From a virus: a stretch of 33,743 nucleotides of DNA. Position numbers and translations under genes: made by a program. Positions 3,896 through 11,751 of this stretch are shown one piece after another (positions within the stretch are counted from its first letter, which is position 1; every line of letters begins with the position of its first letter). The DNA is taken from IMG/VR virus record IMGVR_UViG_3300046167_000546, positions 1 to 33,743 of that record; one strand, 5' to 3'. Under the pieces are notes generated by a model. That model did not search any database. It worked only from the letters and a program-made list of their open reading frames with translations, and was not told the origin of the DNA.

Positions 3896-4222
3896 TTAAA
3901 AGGGTATGTCTTCGGGTGCAGCCATAGGCTCAGGAGCGGCTACAGGCTTAGGGGCGGGTGCTGCATCGGGATGCCACATTTGAAAATAGAGGTCGCCCTC
4001 TTGACTTTCCTTCAAGTCAAACCACAGCGTCTTACCTTGTGTGCCGTCTTTATTTAAGATTGGGTTTTTGTCTTGATCAATGGCGTCAGTGCATCGCCCA
4101 TTCGCTATGCACTCTTCAGCAAAAGCCTGAAACTCAGGGAGGTTTACAACAACCCGATTCCTTGCGTACTTGGGATCTTTTGGTGCTATGGTTTTCATGC
4201 CTTGTATTTTTACTCTACCCAT
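3896..4222 (-). CDS. SSB-like protein with EDIPF C-terminal tip
   Basis: 108 aa. The body (VKIQGMKTIAPKDPKY…VVVNLPEFQAF…LWFDLKESQEGDLYFQMWHP) is not a canonical SSB OB-fold that I can recognise. It ends in an Ala/Pro/Glu linker and an acidic-aromatic tip, PEDIPF. Such a tip (DDIPF in E. coli SSB) is the docking peptide for SSB-interacting repair proteins. It lies between the exonuclease (8-base overlap of 3' and 5' ends) and excisionase in an operon with Erf, so a ssDNA-binding role in recombination fits. AAGGAAG precedes the ATG. Confidence 0.6.
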   Translation of the reverse strand: MGRVKIQGMKTIAPKDPKYARNRVVVNLPEFQAFAEECIANGRCTDAIDQDKNPILNKDGTQGKTLWFDLKESQEGDLYFQMWHPDAAPAPKPVAAPEPMAAPEDIPF

Positions 4223-5090
4223 TTTTTACTTCCTTCAGTTGTAGTGTTTCCACCAGTTCACCCCGAAACGGCTCTAAGTCCGCAGTGGGCATTAATGATT
4301 TAAAGGCTTTGGCGTAGCTGATAGAGCCTTTGCGTGTGGTCTTTTGAACGCGGTAGTTGAGGCCAACCACATCACGTTCTTGGGCATACTCAAACATCAA
4401 GCCTTTAAGGTGCTTTGCTGACATTTCAGCACTCGCCAACTTCTTCATTACCGCCTCATACTGGCCTTCAAGAATCAGCCAGTCAGAATCTTGGCTAAGG
4501 TCGGCAATGTCGGGGGTATCTTCCAAGTCTTTAAGGAACTGAACCCAGCCGTCACAGATAGCCTCGCGCAACTCAAGATCAGGCAGATACCATTGGTGAC
4601 AGCTTTCAGCCTCATTGCTTGCCATGAACAAGCACTGGTCTGCGCCACTCACTAATAACTGCTGTTCCATTTGAATGCGGTGCTGGATAGGTATCTGTCC
4701 TGCATCAACAGCCGCCTGAATCTTTTGGTTCCACGTTTTGTGTTCCCACAATACGGTGTGTTCCATGTCGATACCGTCAAAGGACGCCGACAAGCGGCCC
4801 TGAATTGCGTCAGGCAGGCCGTTGCCGTCATACACTCCCGACATGGGGGCTAAGTCTTCGCCTGCTATCTCGCAGGCAAAGGGAAGCGCACGGGCCTCTA
4901 GCTCATGGCCCTTGGCAAACAGCATCGCTTGATAGCTGCTGATGTTCTTCTCTTTGCCCCAGTTGCGAATGAACGAATCTCTAGAGCCATAGCCTTCGCC
5001 CATCATTTCAGGTGCCTGGGAGGCGGTTAGGTGGGTGGCTCTGAACAGGTGCCATTCAGGAGTTCCTTGATCGAGGTCAACTATCTTCAT
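4215..5090 (-). CDS. YqaJ/lambda-Exo-type recombination exonuclease
   Basis: 291 aa. The N-terminus has the family signature Q-GTPEWHLFRATHLTAS (8-24). GHELEARAL supplies a conserved Glu (E63), and SASFDGID…WEHK gives the PD-(D/E)XK core D105, E116, K118. HRIQMEQQLLVSGAD (137-151) is the conserved downstream motif. The family degrades one strand of duplex DNA to feed a ssDNA annealing protein; the partner here is Erf, two genes upstream. GGAGG precedes the ATG, and start and stop overlap neighbours by 4 and 8 bases. The C-terminal 80 residues are helical. Confidence 0.88.
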   Translation of the reverse strand: MKIVDLDQGTPEWHLFRATHLTASQAPEMMGEGYGSRDSFIRNWGKEKNISSYQAMLFAKGHELEARALPFACEIAGEDLAPMSGVYDGNGLPDAIQGRLSASFDGIDMEHTVLWEHKTWNQKIQAAVDAGQIPIQHRIQMEQQLLVSGADQCLFMASNEAESCHQWYLPDLELREAICDGWVQFLKDLEDTPDIADLSQDSDWLILEGQYEAVMKKLASAEMSAKHLKGLMFEYAQERDVVGLNYRVQKTTRKGSISYAKAFKSLMPTADLEPFRGELVETLQLKEVKNG

Positions 5091-5404
5091 TTTACGGCCT
5101 CCATTTCATCTAAAAGAACCATGCACTTGTTGCCAATCTCCACTGCCGCAGCATTTGCCCTGTCATGGGCAGTCGTTGGGACTATGAAAGCAACGTCATC
5201 AACAAGCGGTTTAGGGTGTCCGTTCCAATATCGGCGCGAACACGTTTGATAGAAGTAGTGACAGACGCTCGTGTATTCCATTTTCATACGCTCGGCGTGT
5301 TGCTGTGCGGCATCCCACTTTGACAGGCAAAAATCATATTCTTCAGAAGGCCCACCCATAGCAGATAAGCAGACAAAAGAAAGCGCAAGAATCAATGCTT
5401 TCAT
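5087..5404 (-). CDS. Secreted/periplasmic protein nested in the recombination operon
   Basis: 105 aa with a clear signal peptide: MK then the hydrophobic ALILALSFVCLSA, with likely cleavage after about residue 15. The mature part has four Cys (26, 48, 55, 94), aromatic-rich (YTSVCHYFYQTC), suggesting two disulphides. It overlaps Erf by ATGA upstream and the exonuclease by 4 bases downstream, so it is translated with cytoplasmic recombination proteins although it should leave the cytoplasm. Function not recognised; an envelope role such as superinfection exclusion or lysis is only a guess. GAGG lies seven bases before the ATG. Confidence 0.7.
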   Translation of the reverse strand: MKALILALSFVCLSAMGGPSEEYDFCLSKWDAAQQHAERMKMEYTSVCHYFYQTCSRRYWNGHPKPLVDDVAFIVPTTAHDRANAAAVEIGNKCMVLLDEMEAVK

Positions 5405-5988
5405 GCCGCCACCTCTGGTTCATTCTCTCGCAGCAGCTTTTCCAAATCGGCGCTAATGGTGTACTTGCGCTTCCAGTGGGCGATAGCTTTATCCGCAGTG
5501 CCGCGTCCAGCTTGTATAGCCTCTATGACCTTCTCAACAGCGTCTTGTGGAACGTTGGGTTTTACCTTGGGCTGTCTAATGGCAGGGGCGGGTGGTGTGC
5601 TGTGCTTGCTGTCTTCACCGTCCAAGTCGGCTTGGGCCACCCCGGTCATTGCAGCCAATCCATAGCGGCGAAGATAGGTGGTTGCAGAGCCAATGCCTTG
5701 GCCGTCCATTTTGGCAGGGACGCAGCTTGCCTCGCTGCTAATACTGCCGCCACCTGCATGTGCCAGTACCGTAGTCACGGTCACCATAGAGCCGTCAAAT
5801 GCTGTACCCTGAATGACAGCAATGCCATTTTTTGAGAGCGCAGGTTTAACGGTGTCGAGGATAGACGCCAGGTCAGCGTAGTCAGATTTAAAGTGCGGGT
5901 TCTTAGAGTTCTTTGCCGCGTTGACAATCTCGCCCTGAGCCTTGGCTAAAGCGCCATATAGCTCCGCGTTTCCAGTTTCAGTGTGCAT
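5401..5988 (-). CDS. erf: Erf-family single-strand annealing protein
   Basis: 195 aa from the ATG at 5988, which has GGGAG upstream; a longer in-frame version begins at 6012 without a good site. The family core is plain: LAKAQGEIVNAAKNSKN, then FKSDYADLASILDTVKPAL (about residues 33-51), then GIAVIQ and the GSATTYLRRYGLAAMTGV block. A Pro-rich linker at about 148-165 leads to a small helical C-terminal domain. Erf anneals complementary ssDNA, enabling circularisation or recombination of phage DNA. It forms an operon with the YqaJ-type exonuclease and the SSB-tail protein. Confidence 0.92.
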   Translation of the reverse strand: MHTETGNAELYGALAKAQGEIVNAAKNSKNPHFKSDYADLASILDTVKPALSKNGIAVIQGTAFDGSMVTVTTVLAHAGGGSISSEASCVPAKMDGQGIGSATTYLRRYGLAAMTGVAQADLDGEDSKHSTPPAPAIRQPKVKPNVPQDAVEKVIEAIQAGRGTADKAIAHWKRKYTISADLEKLLRENEPEVAA

Positions 5989-6199
5989 AGTTACTCCCTT
6001 CAAGAATCTCACCCAGATAATGCTGGGCCTCTTCAGCGGCCTCTTCGGTCGCCAGTTCCAGTGCGGCAGTCAGTTGCGTGTGGTTAGCGGCAAAAGTGAT
6101 CTCACTCACAGCGCTCTCCACAAACACATTCCACTCGCCATTTCTTCGTACAGCGGTCGTGTTAAACCGCAGTCGATCAACTGAGCTTTTCGACAACAT
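5978..6199 (-). CDS. Hypothetical protein (73 aa)
   Basis: 73 aa, not recognised. The ATG at 6199 is chosen because GGAGG lies eight bases upstream; an in-frame TTG at 6214 has none. It overlaps the upstream gene by 23 bases and Erf by 11. The protein looks soluble, with a strand-rich half (RLRFNTTAVRRNGEWNVFVE) and an Ala/Glu helix (ALELATEEAAEEAQHYL). It is probably a small accessory of the recombination operon. Confidence 0.6.
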   Translation of the reverse strand: MLSKSSVDRLRFNTTAVRRNGEWNVFVESAVSEITFAANHTQLTAALELATEEAAEEAQHYLGEILEGSNYAH

Positions 6200-6452
6200 C
6201 AGACATGCCTCCAATTATGTGCCGCAACATATCCCCGGCACGTTGGTCAAACTTATGGTGGTCACGGGCATCCATAGCTTCCAAAGCGCTAACAATGTAA
6301 TTGCTAACCACCTCTTCGCTAACGTCCCATTGTTCAAGCGTGGTGCCTGCGAATATGCCGTCATTAATCATTGACTCGACACAGGACTTTGGAGACTCGT
6401 CGCAGTAATCAATCAGCTTTTGCAGCTTCGTTCTGTCTTGTTCTGGTTGCAT
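6177..6452 (-). CDS. Hypothetical acidic protein (91 aa), first gene of the recombination operon
   Basis: 91 aa from the ATG at 6452, which follows AAAGGGAA; the frame is open to 6524 but the extra residues look non-coding. It is helical and acidic (KLQKLIDYCDESPKSC, EEVVSNYIVSALEAM) with no membrane segment. I do not recognise a family. It is the promoter-proximal gene of the leftward operon that ends with int. Confidence 0.6.
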   Translation of the reverse strand: MQPEQDRTKLQKLIDYCDESPKSCVESMINDGIFAGTTLEQWDVSEEVVSNYIVSALEAMDARDHHKFDQRAGDMLRHIIGGMSDVVEKLS

Positions 6453-6666: not shown

Positions 6667-6861
6667 ATGGGTTCAGTGGTACAGGATTTAATTAAGTTGA
6701 ACAGCGAAATGAGTGCAGCAGGAAAGGTAGCAATGCTTGAAGCTCTCAGCGCCGTTCAGTCGCACGGTCAGCAAGCAACGCAACCAACCGCAACAAATCC
6801 TGCTGAGGTAGACGCCGAGACAAATCGCCAATCAGACGGCGTAAGTCATCGGGAGCCATAG
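6667..6861 (+). CDS. Small hypothetical protein (64 aa), antisense to the repressor 3' end
   Basis: 64 aa. AAGGAGAGG lies about nine bases before the ATG, a strong ribosome site. The first half is helical (VQDLIKLNSEMSAAGKVAMLEALSAV), the rest Gln/Thr-rich. The last 39 codons run antisense over the end of the repressor gene at 6746. It faces away from the leftward operon and shares its upstream region. It could be a real small regulator, or the ORF may be partly fortuitous over the repressor. Confidence 0.4.
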   Translation: MGSVVQDLIKLNSEMSAAGKVAMLEALSAVQSHGQQATQPTATNPAEVDAETNRQSDGVSHREP

Positions 6862-7166
6862 CCTCCAACTGCTGCTCTACGTCGATTAGATCATCGGGGG
6901 GAACGATAAAGTTCTCTGCCAATGACGGGTCTATGTCGTAAGGACTGACGCCCAGGTACTTAGCAAAGCGGCTAATCGCATTCGCATTTAGGGGTATTCG
7001 CCCCAGCATATACTGGCCTGCTGTGCCGACTGTCCAGCCTAACGCTTTAGCCATGTCTCTCTGGGTAACGCCTTCACGTTCTTTCTTTGCCAGCCATAAG
7101 CTGTGGATACGTGCGGCAATCTTTTGCTCCTTTCTCGGTGAGCTTCCGTCTGTTTGTAATGGTCAT
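6746..7166 (-). CDS. Cro/CI-type (XRE) phage repressor, frame broken near its N-terminus
   Basis: The intact part (ATG 7054 to 6746) starts in mid-HTH: MAKALGWTVGTAGQYMLGR, then ISRFAKYLGVSP and an acidic/helical tail rich in Leu and Arg. The missing first helix is present upstream in the same frame (IAARIHSLWLAKKEREGVTQRD). A proper start, MTITNRRKLTEK at 7166, is in the other frame. Removing one base near 7129-7133 (+ strand cctttc) fuses them into 139 aa. Alternatively, an ATT at 7120 behind AAAGGAG could be an unusual start. By position and fold it is the lysogeny repressor, short and without a LexA-like cleavage domain. Confidence 0.7.
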
Positions 7167-7194
7167 CCTTCAGTACCTGTTGATGTAGGGGTCG

Positions 7195-7224
7195 CTTATA
7201 GCATTGCGATACATGCGCTGACAA
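7195..7224 (-). promoter_or_regulatory. Repressor promoter (TTGTCA-N18-TATAAG)
   Basis: Read on the minus strand, TTGTCA (7224-7219) is followed after 18 bases by TATAAG (7200-7195), good sigma-70 elements. It lies about 30-60 bases upstream of the repressor ATG at 7166. One copy of the GCATTGCGATAC element fills its spacer, and the LexA-type dyad abuts the -35 box, so its output is probably controlled by both. Confidence 0.6.
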
Positions 7225-7258
7225 CCTGTTGATTTATACAGGCGTGGCAATGCGATAC
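7201..7258. repeat. Directly repeated operator-like elements GCAWTGCGATAC
   Basis: GCATTGCGATAC (7201-7212) recurs as GCAATGCGATAC (7247-7258), with a weaker form TGCAATGAAATAC starting at about 7270. ACCTGTTGAT also occurs twice (from about 7175 and 7224), so a unit of roughly 35 bases is imperfectly duplicated with about 47-base spacing. The elements overlap the repressor promoter and the start of the rightward region. They are the best candidates for repressor/Cro binding sites. Confidence 0.45.
7226..7241. promoter_or_regulatory. LexA-type SOS box (CTGTTGATTTATACAG)
   Basis: The site is CTG-N10-CAG with CTGT/ACAG ends, the gammaproteobacterial LexA consensus; with flanks it is a perfect CCTGT…ACAGG dyad and an AT-rich centre. 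It sits between the repressor promoter and the rightward gene region. It would allow host LexA to control phage promoters and link induction to DNA damage. Confidence 0.6.
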
Positions 7259-7272
7259 AGAAAAAGGTTGCA

Positions 7273-7416
7273 ATGAAATACGAAGGGGGATTAAGATCGG
7301 GTCGAGTCAATGGTGCGCTAACACCGATTGAGACCGTGAGAGTTGCCAGAAGAGAAAGAACAGTACACACGACCCAGCGTCATTATACTGTATCCGACAC
7401 TTCCAGCAACACCTAA
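7273..7416 (+). CDS. Possible small early ORF (47 aa)
   Basis: 47 aa, basic (VRVARRERTV), with AAAAAGG about five bases before the ATG. It occupies the position where a cro gene would lie but shows no HTH. In the same frame after its stop, codons from about 7432 to 7557 also look protein-like (TTAGLIEARLLWDVFAAARG), so a longer damaged gene is possible. Weak call. Confidence 0.25.
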   Translation: MKYEGGLRSGRVNGALTPIETVRVARRERTVHTTQRHYTVSDTSSNT

Positions 7417-7737
7417 CAAACTCATACACCATTGACCTCTCTATCAGTCGTCGGGGAAACCACGGCAGGGCTGATTGAAGCGCGGTTACTGTGGGATGTG
7501 TTCGCAGCCGCAAGGGGACTCGAAAGGTGGAACCCCGAACACTCAGGCGCAGATTAGCCTGATTAAGTTGCCACCGAACTCATAGCTACTGCGGTGTATG
7601 AGTGACCTAACTGCCGATGTGACGGTGACGGGTGAGAGAGAGTGAACCTAGGCGAATTCTCTCCTAAGTTCCTCTCTAACCTATCAACCAATGCTCTGGC
7701 TCTGGGTGAGTTTTAAAACACTTTGAAGGGAAATTAT
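7417..7737 (+). other. Structured leader region before the ParB/methyltransferase gene
   Basis: No convincing gene fills this stretch. It holds several hairpins: TCAGGC/GCCTGA (7543-7562), ACTCATA/TATGAGT (7578-7603, perfect 7 bp), and a nested 51-base stem-loop at 7631-7681. That one has an outer stem GGTGAGAGAG/CTCTCTAACC and an inner GAACCTAGG/CCTAAGTTC, each with one imperfect pair. The last ends 57 bases before the next ATG. It may be a long 5' leader, a small RNA, or a decayed cro-like gene. Confidence 0.35.
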
Positions 7738-9102
7738 ATGCACGAAAATATTAGTCAAATTGATATTAATAAATTGCAACCGCACCCACAAAACCCAAGG
7801 CTTTCACTGCGACAAGATGTAGTTGATGCTTTGATTATAAATATTGGCAAAAACTTTGACCCGGCACACGCGCTTTTGGTGCGCGAAACTGCCAGCGGTT
7901 ATGAGGTTTTAAGCGGCCACCACAGGCTAGAGGCCGCAAAACGTAACGGCCTTGAATCTGTCCCATGTTGGGTTAGGGATATGAATGATGACGAGGCTTA
8001 CATGGCCTTAGTCACCAGCAACAGCCAAGGTGAGTTATCGCCATTAGAGATTGGCTTTCACGCACTAAATTGCGTTGCCTTGTCTGCTGGTGGCAGGGGG
8101 CAAAAAGGCGGCTTGTCTGCCTATGCCGAGCGGGTGGGGAAGTCGCAACCGTTTATTTCGCAACTGGTCAAGGCGGCAGAGGTTGCAAAAGGTATAAGCG
8201 GGCTTATGGGTTTAGAGACAAAAACCCAGCACCTAAACGCCATTCACTCTTTGCCCGAATCCTGCTGGCCCGAGGCTGTTCAGTTCATGCTTGATAAGGG
8301 GTGGTCAAAGGAAGAAACACAAAAGCGGGTAAAAGATTCAGAGGCGTCTACGGAAAAGCGGCGCATTGCGTTGTTTGTTGGCAAGACCAGCCAGCGCGAG
8401 TTAAAGCGCATGGATGATTTGCGGCAGCAAGTGGCGCAAAACATTGAGTACGAAGACCTAAAAGCCGAATGGCTAGACTGGCTAAACGTAAACGATCCAA
8501 CTGACATTAAAGAATTTCAAGCCCAGCGGATCGAAATAGAGGAGCGGGTGTTAGAGAGGCGAGAGGCTGAAGAGGAAGCGGCCAAAGCACAGAGGGAGAT
8601 AACACTGCCGCAATTAGTTTTAGCTGACCCGCCCTGGCGTTATGACTTTGCCCAATCTGATTCCCGTCAAATCGAGAATCAATATCCAAGCGCTACAGTT
8701 GACGAGATTATTGATCACTCACCCGAGACTCACCACGACTGCGTTTTGTTCATGTGGGCAACGGTAGCAAAGCTGCAAGAGGCTTTCGAGGTTATGCAGG
8801 GTTGGGGCTTTGAATATAAAACCCACGCCGTATGGGACAAGCAAAAAATAGGTATGGGTTACTGGTTTAGGGGGCAGCATGAATTGCTGTTAGTGGGTAC
8901 AAAGGGGCAGGCGTCACCACCAGAGGAAGCCAATCGAGTAAGCAGCGTTTTTAGTGAGGGGCGCGGCAAGCACAGCAAAAAGCCTGAGTGCGTTTATCAG
9001 TGGCTGGACACTGCATTCCCAAATATTAACAAGCTAGAGATGTATTGCCGCGAGTCAAGGCAAGGTTGGGTTGTGTTTGGTAATGAATCGGGGGTGGCGT
9101 AA
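7738..9102 (+). CDS. ParB-like domain / MT-A70 adenine methyltransferase fusion
   Basis: 454 aa from the ATG at 7738 (GAAGGG upstream); a TTG at 7723 is in frame but lacks a site. Residues 7-100 are a ParB/Spo0J-type domain: IDINKLQPHPQNPR, then VLSGHHRLEAAKR (57-69). Residues about 125-285 hold an HTH and a charged coiled linker. Residues 293-450 are an MT-A70 methyltransferase with DPPW at 297-300, YWFRGQHELLLVG (375-387), HSKKPE and LEMYCRESRQGW (433-444). The expected reaction is S-adenosylmethionine-dependent N6-methylation of adenine in DNA. It is translationally coupled (TAATG) to a nuclease-like gene. Confidence 0.88.
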   Translation: MHENISQIDINKLQPHPQNPRLSLRQDVVDALIINIGKNFDPAHALLVRETASGYEVLSGHHRLEAAKRNGLESVPCWVRDMNDDEAYMALVTSNSQGELSPLEIGFHALNCVALSAGGRGQKGGLSAYAERVGKSQPFISQLVKAAEVAKGISGLMGLETKTQHLNAIHSLPESCWPEAVQFMLDKGWSKEETQKRVKDSEASTEKRRIALFVGKTSQRELKRMDDLRQQVAQNIEYEDLKAEWLDWLNVNDPTDIKEFQAQRIEIEERVLERREAEEEAAKAQREITLPQLVLADPPWRYDFAQSDSRQIENQYPSATVDEIIDHSPETHHDCVLFMWATVAKLQEAFEVMQGWGFEYKTHAVWDKQKIGMGYWFRGQHELLLVGTKGQASPPEEANRVSSVFSEGRGKHSKKPECVYQWLDTAFPNINKLEMYCRESRQGWVVFGNESGVA

Positions 9103-9614
9103 TGGGGTCAGTACATGATTTTAGGGACAGTCTTGAGTTTTCTCACGCAGTCGGGGAAGAACCGTTTTGGGAGTCGTTATATAGACAGTGGTTCCCAACC
9201 ATGCAGGGCATGCACAGCCATGATCAAAACGGCGATCACCAGAAGGCTGGGATTGATCGCACTATTATATTGAGAAATTCAAAGCAAATTACGATTGATG
9301 AAAAGGTAAGGCGCAAAGATTATGGCGATATTTTGCTTGAATTTTGGAGCAATAAAGAAAAAAAGATAGAAGGTTGGGTAGCTAAGGATTTGCTCTGTGA
9401 TTATGTCGCCTATGTAATTAGGCCCGCTAAACAGGGTTATCTTTTGCCAGTCCCACAATTAAGGGCCGCGTGGCGCAAGCACCATGTTGAATGGCTTAAA
9501 AAGTATGAGCGGATAAACTGCAAAAACAAAAATTATACGACTGAATCGGTAGCCGTACCGCCTGATGTTGTGTTTGCGGCAATGAACAGCGCTTCACAAG
9601 GCGGCTTTGAATAA
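9102..9614 (+). CDS. PD-(D/E)XK-like nuclease candidate coupled to the methyltransferase
   Basis: 170 aa. After a helical N-terminus come GIDRTIILRNS (D52) and ITIDEKVRRKDYGDILLEF, in which D66-E67-K68 supplies the (D/E)XK motif one strand later. This spacing, with a Gln-rich/aromatic third strand (KDLLCDYVAYVI), fits the PD-(D/E)XK endonuclease fold. The ATG overlaps the methyltransferase stop (TAATG), so the pair is made together. It may be a restriction partner, a Holliday-junction or repair nuclease; no cognate specificity can be read from the sequence. Confidence 0.55.
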   Translation: MGSVHDFRDSLEFSHAVGEEPFWESLYRQWFPTMQGMHSHDQNGDHQKAGIDRTIILRNSKQITIDEKVRRKDYGDILLEFWSNKEKKIEGWVAKDLLCDYVAYVIRPAKQGYLLPVPQLRAAWRKHHVEWLKKYERINCKNKNYTTESVAVPPDVVFAAMNSASQGGFE

Positions 9615-11191: not shown

Positions 11192-11342
11192 TCAGCATTG
11201 GTGTGTCTGCGGCGCACCGTATCGCCTTCACAATGTCGTGAGGGCTGCGGGTGAGACAAATGGCGGGCTGATGCTGACTAGCCGCTGGTGGTGGATATGC
11301 CACACCTGCTTTAGCTTCGAGGCGCATCATGGGGGGGATTAA
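11184..11342 (+). CDS. Small zinc-ribbon-like protein (52 aa)
   Basis: 52 aa. It holds two Cys pairs, WCVCGAP near the start and WICHTCFSF near the end, a zinc-ribbon-like layout, and ends in HHGGD. The ATG overlaps the upstream stop by 8 bases, and the 3' end overlaps the HNH gene by 14. It probably binds one zinc. It may assist the HNH nuclease or act in DNA/RNA binding. Confidence 0.5.
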   Translation: MNNQHWCVCGAPYRLHNVVRAAGETNGGLMLTSRWWWICHTCFSFEAHHGGD

Positions 11343-11751
11343 GCGAACAGCCGCAGACGCGCATTTTAGTAACGCCGTTAGAAGTCGTGACAGGTGGACA
11401 TGTCAGCGTTGCCGCAAGAGCTATGAGCATTCCACCCAGGGGCTAGACTGCGCTCATATTGTAGGACGTAGAGGGGCCAGTACGCGCTACGACTTACACA
11501 ATGCATTGAGCCTTTGTTTTACATGTCATCGGTGGTTTGACGGCGAGATACTAGAGGCTGGCGACTGGTTTTGTCAGACATTCGGTGAGGCCCGTAAGGA
11601 CTATCTACTAGAGCGTAAGAACTGGGTCGTTAAGAACAACGACAAGCTACGCAATGCGGTATCCGCGCATTACCGGCAAGAGCTTCAGGCTTTAAAGGAC
11701 GACCCACTGCATAAGATCAACAACTTCGACATAGTACCGTTCAAAAAATAA
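11329..11751 (+). CDS. HNH endonuclease, NinG/Rap-like
   Basis: 140 aa. The core reads CQRCRK (C25, C28), LDCAHIVGRR (H43), RYDLHNALSLC (N58) and CFTCHRWF (C63, C66, H67), an HNH fold with a structural zinc. The rest is basic and helical. Such small HNH proteins act in phage recombination (NinG/Rap) or in packaging beside terminase. Here it closes the DNA-metabolism operon, 1.4 kb before the terminase genes. GAGG lies seven bases before the ATG at 11329. A terminator follows at once. Confidence 0.8.
   Translation: MGGIKRTAADAHFSNAVRSRDRWTCQRCRKSYEHSTQGLDCAHIVGRRGASTRYDLHNALSLCFTCHRWFDGEILEAGDWFCQTFGEARKDYLLERKNWVVKNNDKLRNAVSAHYRQELQALKDDPLHKINNFDIVPFKK

Follow-up and report, generated by a model that had tools for sequence, protein, structure and literature searches.

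Phage proteins that join a ParB domain to a methyltransferase have been described before, and for the fusion of a Bacillus cereus prophage both m6A activity and nicking are on record (PMC12704722, PMC3459991, PMC5512222). This protein, BCE_0392 of B. cereus ATCC 10987, was shown to produce m6dA in E. coli, and like the protein discussed here, ORF1, it is a prophage-borne fusion of a ParB domain with an adenine methylase (PMC3459991). However, the available sections of that report ascribe the nicking to the ParB-methylase itself and describe no paired PD-(D/E)XK gene. According to the accessible part of a recent survey, methyltransferase fusions of the ParB-CTPase fold are enriched in prophages, and a possible anti-defense role has been proposed for them (PMC12704722). 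They resemble ORF1 in the linkage of a ParB fold to methylase domains, but the phage fusions named in that text contain N6_N4 and Methyltransf_23 domains and the MT-A70 fusions are archaeal, whereas the MT-A70 fusion analyzed here is encoded by a phage; furthermore, no nuclease partner is described there, in contrast to the ORF2 reported below. In the MT-A70 enzyme M.EcoPA8orf6770P of an Stx phage, specificity derives, as it would in ORF1, from a separate nucleic-acid-binding part, PNB-2 (PMC10810198). PNB-2 is an independent wHTH subunit, and the enzyme acts on 16S rRNA, whereas the corresponding part of ORF1 is fused to the enzyme and a nuclease gene follows. By their description, the restriction-modification (R-M) systems of chloroviruses and marseilleviruses, which serve in host DNA degradation or the exclusion of rival viruses, are also virus-borne methylase-nuclease pairs, but these viruses, unlike the phage studied here, infect eukaryotes (PMC7253447). 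Thus, the methylase half of the cassette has precedents, whereas both the family of the nuclease and its pairing seem to be new: neither this family nor its near-obligate association with MT-A70 or the module exchange described below was found in the literature and the family libraries searched.

The window, that is the complete 33,743-base IMG/VR virus record analyzed here, encodes an integrase, an Erf-like annealing protein, a RecE-like exonuclease and a repressor on its left side, and a helicase-loader-like gene, a NinB-like gene, a NinG-type endonuclease, the large terminase and a portal gene on its right side, and is therefore assigned to a temperate tailed phage. A repressor-like HTH gene on the minus strand (positions 6746-7054; PHROG match) is separated by a divergent control region, as judged from the ORF layout (7055-7737), from ORF1 on the plus strand (7738-9102 including the stop codon; 454 amino acids), whose ATG at 7738 is preceded by GAAGGGA. 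ORF2 (plus strand, 9102-9614 including the stop codon; 170 amino acids) follows without a gap, because the stop codon of ORF1 (TAA, 9100-9102) and the start codon of ORF2 (ATG, 9102-9104) share one A in the sequence TAATG (9100-9104). The two genes also overlap in most relatives, usually by a few to approximately 25 bases, which agrees with the translational coupling claimed by an earlier, sequence-only reading of this DNA. That reading had also placed the pair in the first rightward operon of the phage; ORF1 is indeed the first rightward gene beyond the leftward repressor-like gene, but another rightward gene is present at 333-2084. The latter encodes 583 amino acids, matches PHROG 2579 ("ParB C-terminal domain," E 6.7e-28) but no Pfam family, and is possibly a second ParB-related gene of the phage. 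A NinG/Rap-like HNH junction endonuclease (11329-11751) belongs to the same rightward operon as the cassette. In related phages the neighbors of the cassette vary, but as in the window it adjoins repressor-like genes together with genes for helicase, primase, replication initiation or Bet-type annealing proteins. The cassette is an early-operon function, and a classical lysogenic exclusion gene is disfavored by these neighbors.

ORF1 consists of a ParB-like/HTH module (residues ~3-208), a helical linker (~209-290) and an MT-A70 domain (292-450), in agreement with the ParB/HTH-adenine methyltransferase fusion proposed earlier for 7738-9102. Pfam recognizes ParB_N at residues 3-91 (E 3.6e-11) and MT-A70 at residues 292-450 (E 1.2e-17). 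The N-terminus thus combines the ParB_N profile of the ParB/Srx (ParB-CTPase) fold with an HTH region, and solved Spo0J, Noc and ParB structures align with it through this region to approximately residue 204 (best E 2.3e-11, residues 7-194). The catalytic domain, delimited by alignment with 22 relatives (plus strand, 8611-9090), contains the catalytic DPPW at residues 297-300 and, besides this, the intact MT-A70 motifs NQYP, FMWAT, WDKxKIGMGYxFRxQHELL and HSxKP; ORF1 aligns to METTL3/MTA1, and a fold comparison of its model gives METTL3 and Tetrahymena MTA1 at E ~1e-11. The overall confidence of this AF2 model is moderate (pLDDT 67.5); the ParB core and the MT domain are for the most part modeled confidently, the middle part is not. 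With regard to the nucleotide-binding boxes of ParB-CTPase folds (G-x-x-R and E-N-x-x-R), the accessible text of the survey states that the box-II arginine is needed for NTP binding (PMC12704722). ORF1 retains the G-x-x-R of box I (SGHHR), but in box II (TSNSQGELSP, compared to ENLQREDLSP in Spo0J) it differs from the usual members of this fold by having glutamine in place of arginine, so that one should not presume NTP-driven clamp loading in the window protein. The arginine is kept in many of its relatives (NQFGRRN, NLHRRH). When the ParB half of ORF1 alone was used as query, no relative was retrieved from the viral contigs.

The product of ORF2 belongs to a family that current annotation misses, as it is unnamed in all four family libraries consulted: ORF2 has no family match in Pfam, PHROGs, NCBIfam or PADLOC, its relatives yield chance-level matches only, and no named restriction enzyme could be recognized as a relative among the families of these libraries. 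Sequence searches with ORF2 retrieved no solved structures, and whole-sequence tblastn searches of INPHARED (~50,000 phage records) with three different members as queries found no relative; relaxing the INPHARED search to an E-value of 10 added chance matches only. Nevertheless, the AF2 model, based on 29 homologs, is of high confidence (pLDDT 91.2, pTM 0.85) and shows one compact fold. Its top five Foldseek matches in the PDB are I-Ssp6803I (probability 0.99), RecU (0.87), the SPARDA nuclease chain 9jsz_B (0.85), D212 (0.77) and MepB (0.51), the first four of which we take to be PD-(D/E)XK nucleases and the last a related protein; Cas4-type chains appear lower in the list. As these five matches reach E-values of only 0.01-0.08 and TM-scores of ~0.36, the kinship to solved nucleases is remote. 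Eight viral models match at E <1e-3; their annotations include an endonuclease and a NO VEIN C-terminal domain protein, one model each. The pattern D52-x13-[D/E/Q]66-x-K68 occurs in 63 of 63 distinct homologs (49 clusters at 70 percent identity). All of these share D52, K68, E80 and G91, position 66 varies only between D, E and Q, and no member has lost the predicted active site, even at 25-50 percent identity. In the window, the predicted metal ligand D52, located in a GIDR motif, is encoded at 9255-9257 and the predicted catalytic motif D66-E67-K68 at 9297-9305 (both plus strand). In the model, D52 lies just ahead of strand 53-57 and D66 and K68 on strand 62-70, and this arrangement of D...(D/E/Q)-x-K on adjacent strands of an alpha/beta core is that of PD-(D/E)XK enzymes, although the fold E-values are modest. 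By fold and residues ORF2 is therefore a PD-(D/E)XK protein with predicted nuclease activity. The sequence-only reading had arrived at the same assignment, which in the lack of any family match cannot stem from a database, and structure prediction did not reject it.

The association of this nuclease with an adenine methylase is close, as the sequence-only reading would lead one to expect for other phages. A scan of viral contigs with ORF1 yielded 22 loci, and an ORF2 homolog is located directly downstream in 18 of these. A second scan used ORF2 and was blind to the methylase; it recovered 33 contigs plus two via a second sub-family, and in 33 of these 35 an MT-A70 gene is directly upstream of the nuclease. 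In one of the other contigs (L027) the upstream side is cut by the contig end, and in the other (L047) a Dam-like methylase of the D12 class (4022-4879; Pfam 3.9e-19) takes the place of MT-A70 while the ORF2-type nuclease is kept (4947-5456). Hence an adenine methylase directly precedes the nuclease in 34 of 34 contigs with enough upstream DNA, the linkage characteristic of type II R-M genes, although several of these contigs are near-identical and the counts are not all independent. Replacement by an unrelated methylase with retention of the nuclease is the pattern that a functional bond between the two predicts. Bacterial genomes seldom contain the family, and all four loci found (three from MAGs and two from 369 genomes of one class, one being shared with the MAG set) have MT-A70 upstream. 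Two plasmid copies are exceptions: a Novosphingobium THN1 homolog (5923-6438) with an unalignable N-terminus and no adjacent methylase, which is probably a decayed remnant, and a remote Jeotgalibacillus homolog without an annotated methylase within 6 kb.

Conversely, MT-A70 genes without the nuclease are common. A nuclease-blind methylase scan gave 80 loci in 56 clusters, which were divided into extended enzymes, in which 100 or more residues precede the MT domain, and bare ones. ORF2 homologs are adjacent in 35 of 40 extended clusters, but in only two of 16 without extension, one of the two being truncated by the contig end (Fisher P 1.9e-7). As almost all bare enzymes fall into a single clade, this contrast, which comprises three evolutionary changes and only two to three independent pairs, is confounded by phylogeny and was downgraded as evidence; its direction is clear, its strength is not. 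An extended MT-A70 lacking the ORF2 family (L091) is coupled to a different ORF of 209 amino acids (2055-2684) with an E-x-K-like motif, IWYIEVKAK, possibly a second PD-(D/E)XK type, and a VRR-NUC-like gene comes next. Another VRR-NUC-like gene (L020, 5448-5879) is found ~1 kb downstream of a close MT-A70 relative without ORF2, and in one further locus (L050, 3769-6251) the nuclease is situated between an extended MT-A70 upstream and a bare one downstream.

The N-terminal module has proved exchangeable. Most extended methylases have ParB-like boxes (DGHNRY, NQFGRRN and similar), but Pfam ParB_N is recognized in only five of 38, the remaining assignments being made by motif. Nine extended clusters possess other N-termini, which are either helical/HTH domains of AEIKIRAER type or DUF3102/DUF1016-like. 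On the methylase tree these nine require nine switches, which is the maximum (shuffled mean 8.1), so that each represents a separate exchange, with the reservation that many forks are weakly supported. The divergence of ORF2 follows the MT domain (Mantel r 0.51, P 0.0005), part of which could be produced by the gene order N-MT-ORF2 alone; it hardly follows the N-terminal domain once the MT domain is removed (partial 0.11), and does not follow the N-terminal type (r ~0). This fits a stable methylase-nuclease core carrying varied targeting modules, and such a division between catalysis and targeting is plausible because the Stx-phage MT-A70 needs a separate nucleic-acid-binding subunit (PMC10810198). 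At least nine N-terminal swaps with both methylase and nuclease retained constitute a natural experiment on where MT-A70 specificity resides. A ParB domain as the constant specificity partner was accordingly dropped. The R-M-like system led by a ParB domain that had been proposed earlier is best supported in its pairing, as the nuclease is found next to an adenine methylase at nearly all loci, in one case of the D12 class. Targeting by ParB is a possibility, but the other N-termini show that a ParB domain is dispensable.

The recurrence of the pair in dozens of unrelated environmental phages suggests a phage-borne R-M-like system of new make. We consider it most probable that the two genes act as an R-M-like pair during the lytic cycle, a reading with about an even chance of being correct; the lytic cycle is the likeliest phase given the position of the cassette at the head of the early rightward operon. 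The MT-A70 domain of ORF1 would methylate adenine N6 in DNA, directed to its target by the ParB/HTH module, and ORF2, made from the same transcript, would act with the methylase as a small metal-dependent endonuclease, possibly receiving its specificity from ORF1. ORF2 is expected to cut DNA without the methylase's mark. Phage DNA that carries the mark from the ongoing or the preceding round would be spared, and unmarked DNA, such as that of competing phages and possibly the host chromosome, would be cut. For restriction and modification genes it is the rule that a methylase often occurs without the nuclease, but the nuclease with a methylase. The present pair behaves in this manner, and the R-M-like reading gains further support from the co-divergence of ORF2 with the MT domain rather than with the N-terminal type, and from the different E-x-K-like ORF coupled to the extended methylase of L091. 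The cassette shares with type II systems the adjacent, coupled genes for an adenine methylase and a PD-(D/E)XK nuclease, as well as the frequent solitary methylase; it differs in the exchangeable N-terminal module, in a nuclease belonging to no named family, and in its location in a phage early operon instead of a mobile defense island. The remote fold kinship, the failure to recognize a named restriction enzyme as a relative in the family libraries searched, the Jeotgalibacillus homolog without annotated methylase and the few evolutionary changes behind the extended-versus-bare contrast count against an R-M-like function.

The position in an early replication operon, moreover, would also suit a nuclease of replication or packaging. 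Here ORF1 would mark phage sites, and a MutH- or RecU-like ORF2 would nick or cut concatemers, branched or hemimethylated DNA in a methylation-steered manner during replication, recombination or packaging. This is a possibility that we take seriously without favoring it: the genes around the cassette include those for helicase, primase, replication initiation and single-strand annealing, the structure-selective PD-(D/E)XK enzyme RecU is a near fold neighbor of ORF2, and the available text on BCE_0392 reports nicking-associated concatenation and suggests replication or packaging (PMC3459991). However, the window already has the NinG/Rap-type junction endonuclease and the RecE-like exonuclease, and across phages the nuclease is linked to the methylase and not to one replication module, as the neighbors differ. 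Phage orphan methylases commonly counter host restriction, and early expression would be compatible with ORF1 shielding phage DNA in this way, while ORF2 would be a host-takeover accessory unrelated to the mark. Although a Serratia phage MT-A70 does confer m6A on GATC (PMC7556043), we regard this explanation as improbable, since ORF2 typically accompanies extended MT-A70 enzymes and is mostly missing beside bare ones, and since the nuclease stays beside the methylase even when the latter is of another class.

Still less probable is a modification-dependent, type IV-like mode of action, in which ORF2 would cut 6mA-containing DNA in a foreign context or be restrained by ORF1. A viral m6A-dependent endonuclease, HHPV4I, is known (PMC10101028), but the 170 residues of ORF2 form one compact fold without room for a methyl-reader domain, and it would be self-destructive to co-express a methylase that creates the nuclease's target. 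The great majority of PD-(D/E)XK enzymes are DNases and the ligand of ParB folds is DNA, which together with the D12 DNA methylase replacing MT-A70 in L047 makes it very unlikely that ORF1 methylates RNA while ORF2 either targets RNA too or plays an unrelated role. Such a substrate is conceivable because METTL3 belongs to the MT-A70 family and the Stx-phage enzyme M.EcoPA8orf6770P, together with its accessory subunit PNB-2, methylates 16S rRNA (PMC10810198).

Within the R-M-like reading, it is a rather doubtful idea that one interchangeable DNA-loading domain, either a ParB clamp or an HTH/helical module, places the MT-A70 enzyme and, via this enzyme, a specificity-free nuclease on DNA. If so, a single domain swap would change what the phage marks and cuts, and the cassette would represent a miniature analog of type I systems on a ParB platform, operating in the lytic cycle. 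In any case, the conserved nuclease partner offers a concrete and testable function for a group of phage ParB-methylase fusions, proteins that have been described repeatedly but lack a clear job.

Naming a target site of ORF1 and ORF2 from site avoidance in the window was abandoned because the signal is too weak; GATC occurs at 0.71 of expectation and CAATTG at a normal frequency. Several other palindromes are depleted, namely CCGG (0.37 of expected), AATT and several of six bases, and CTGCAG is absent from the window compared to 12.9 expected occurrences, a depletion that may originate from restriction by the host.
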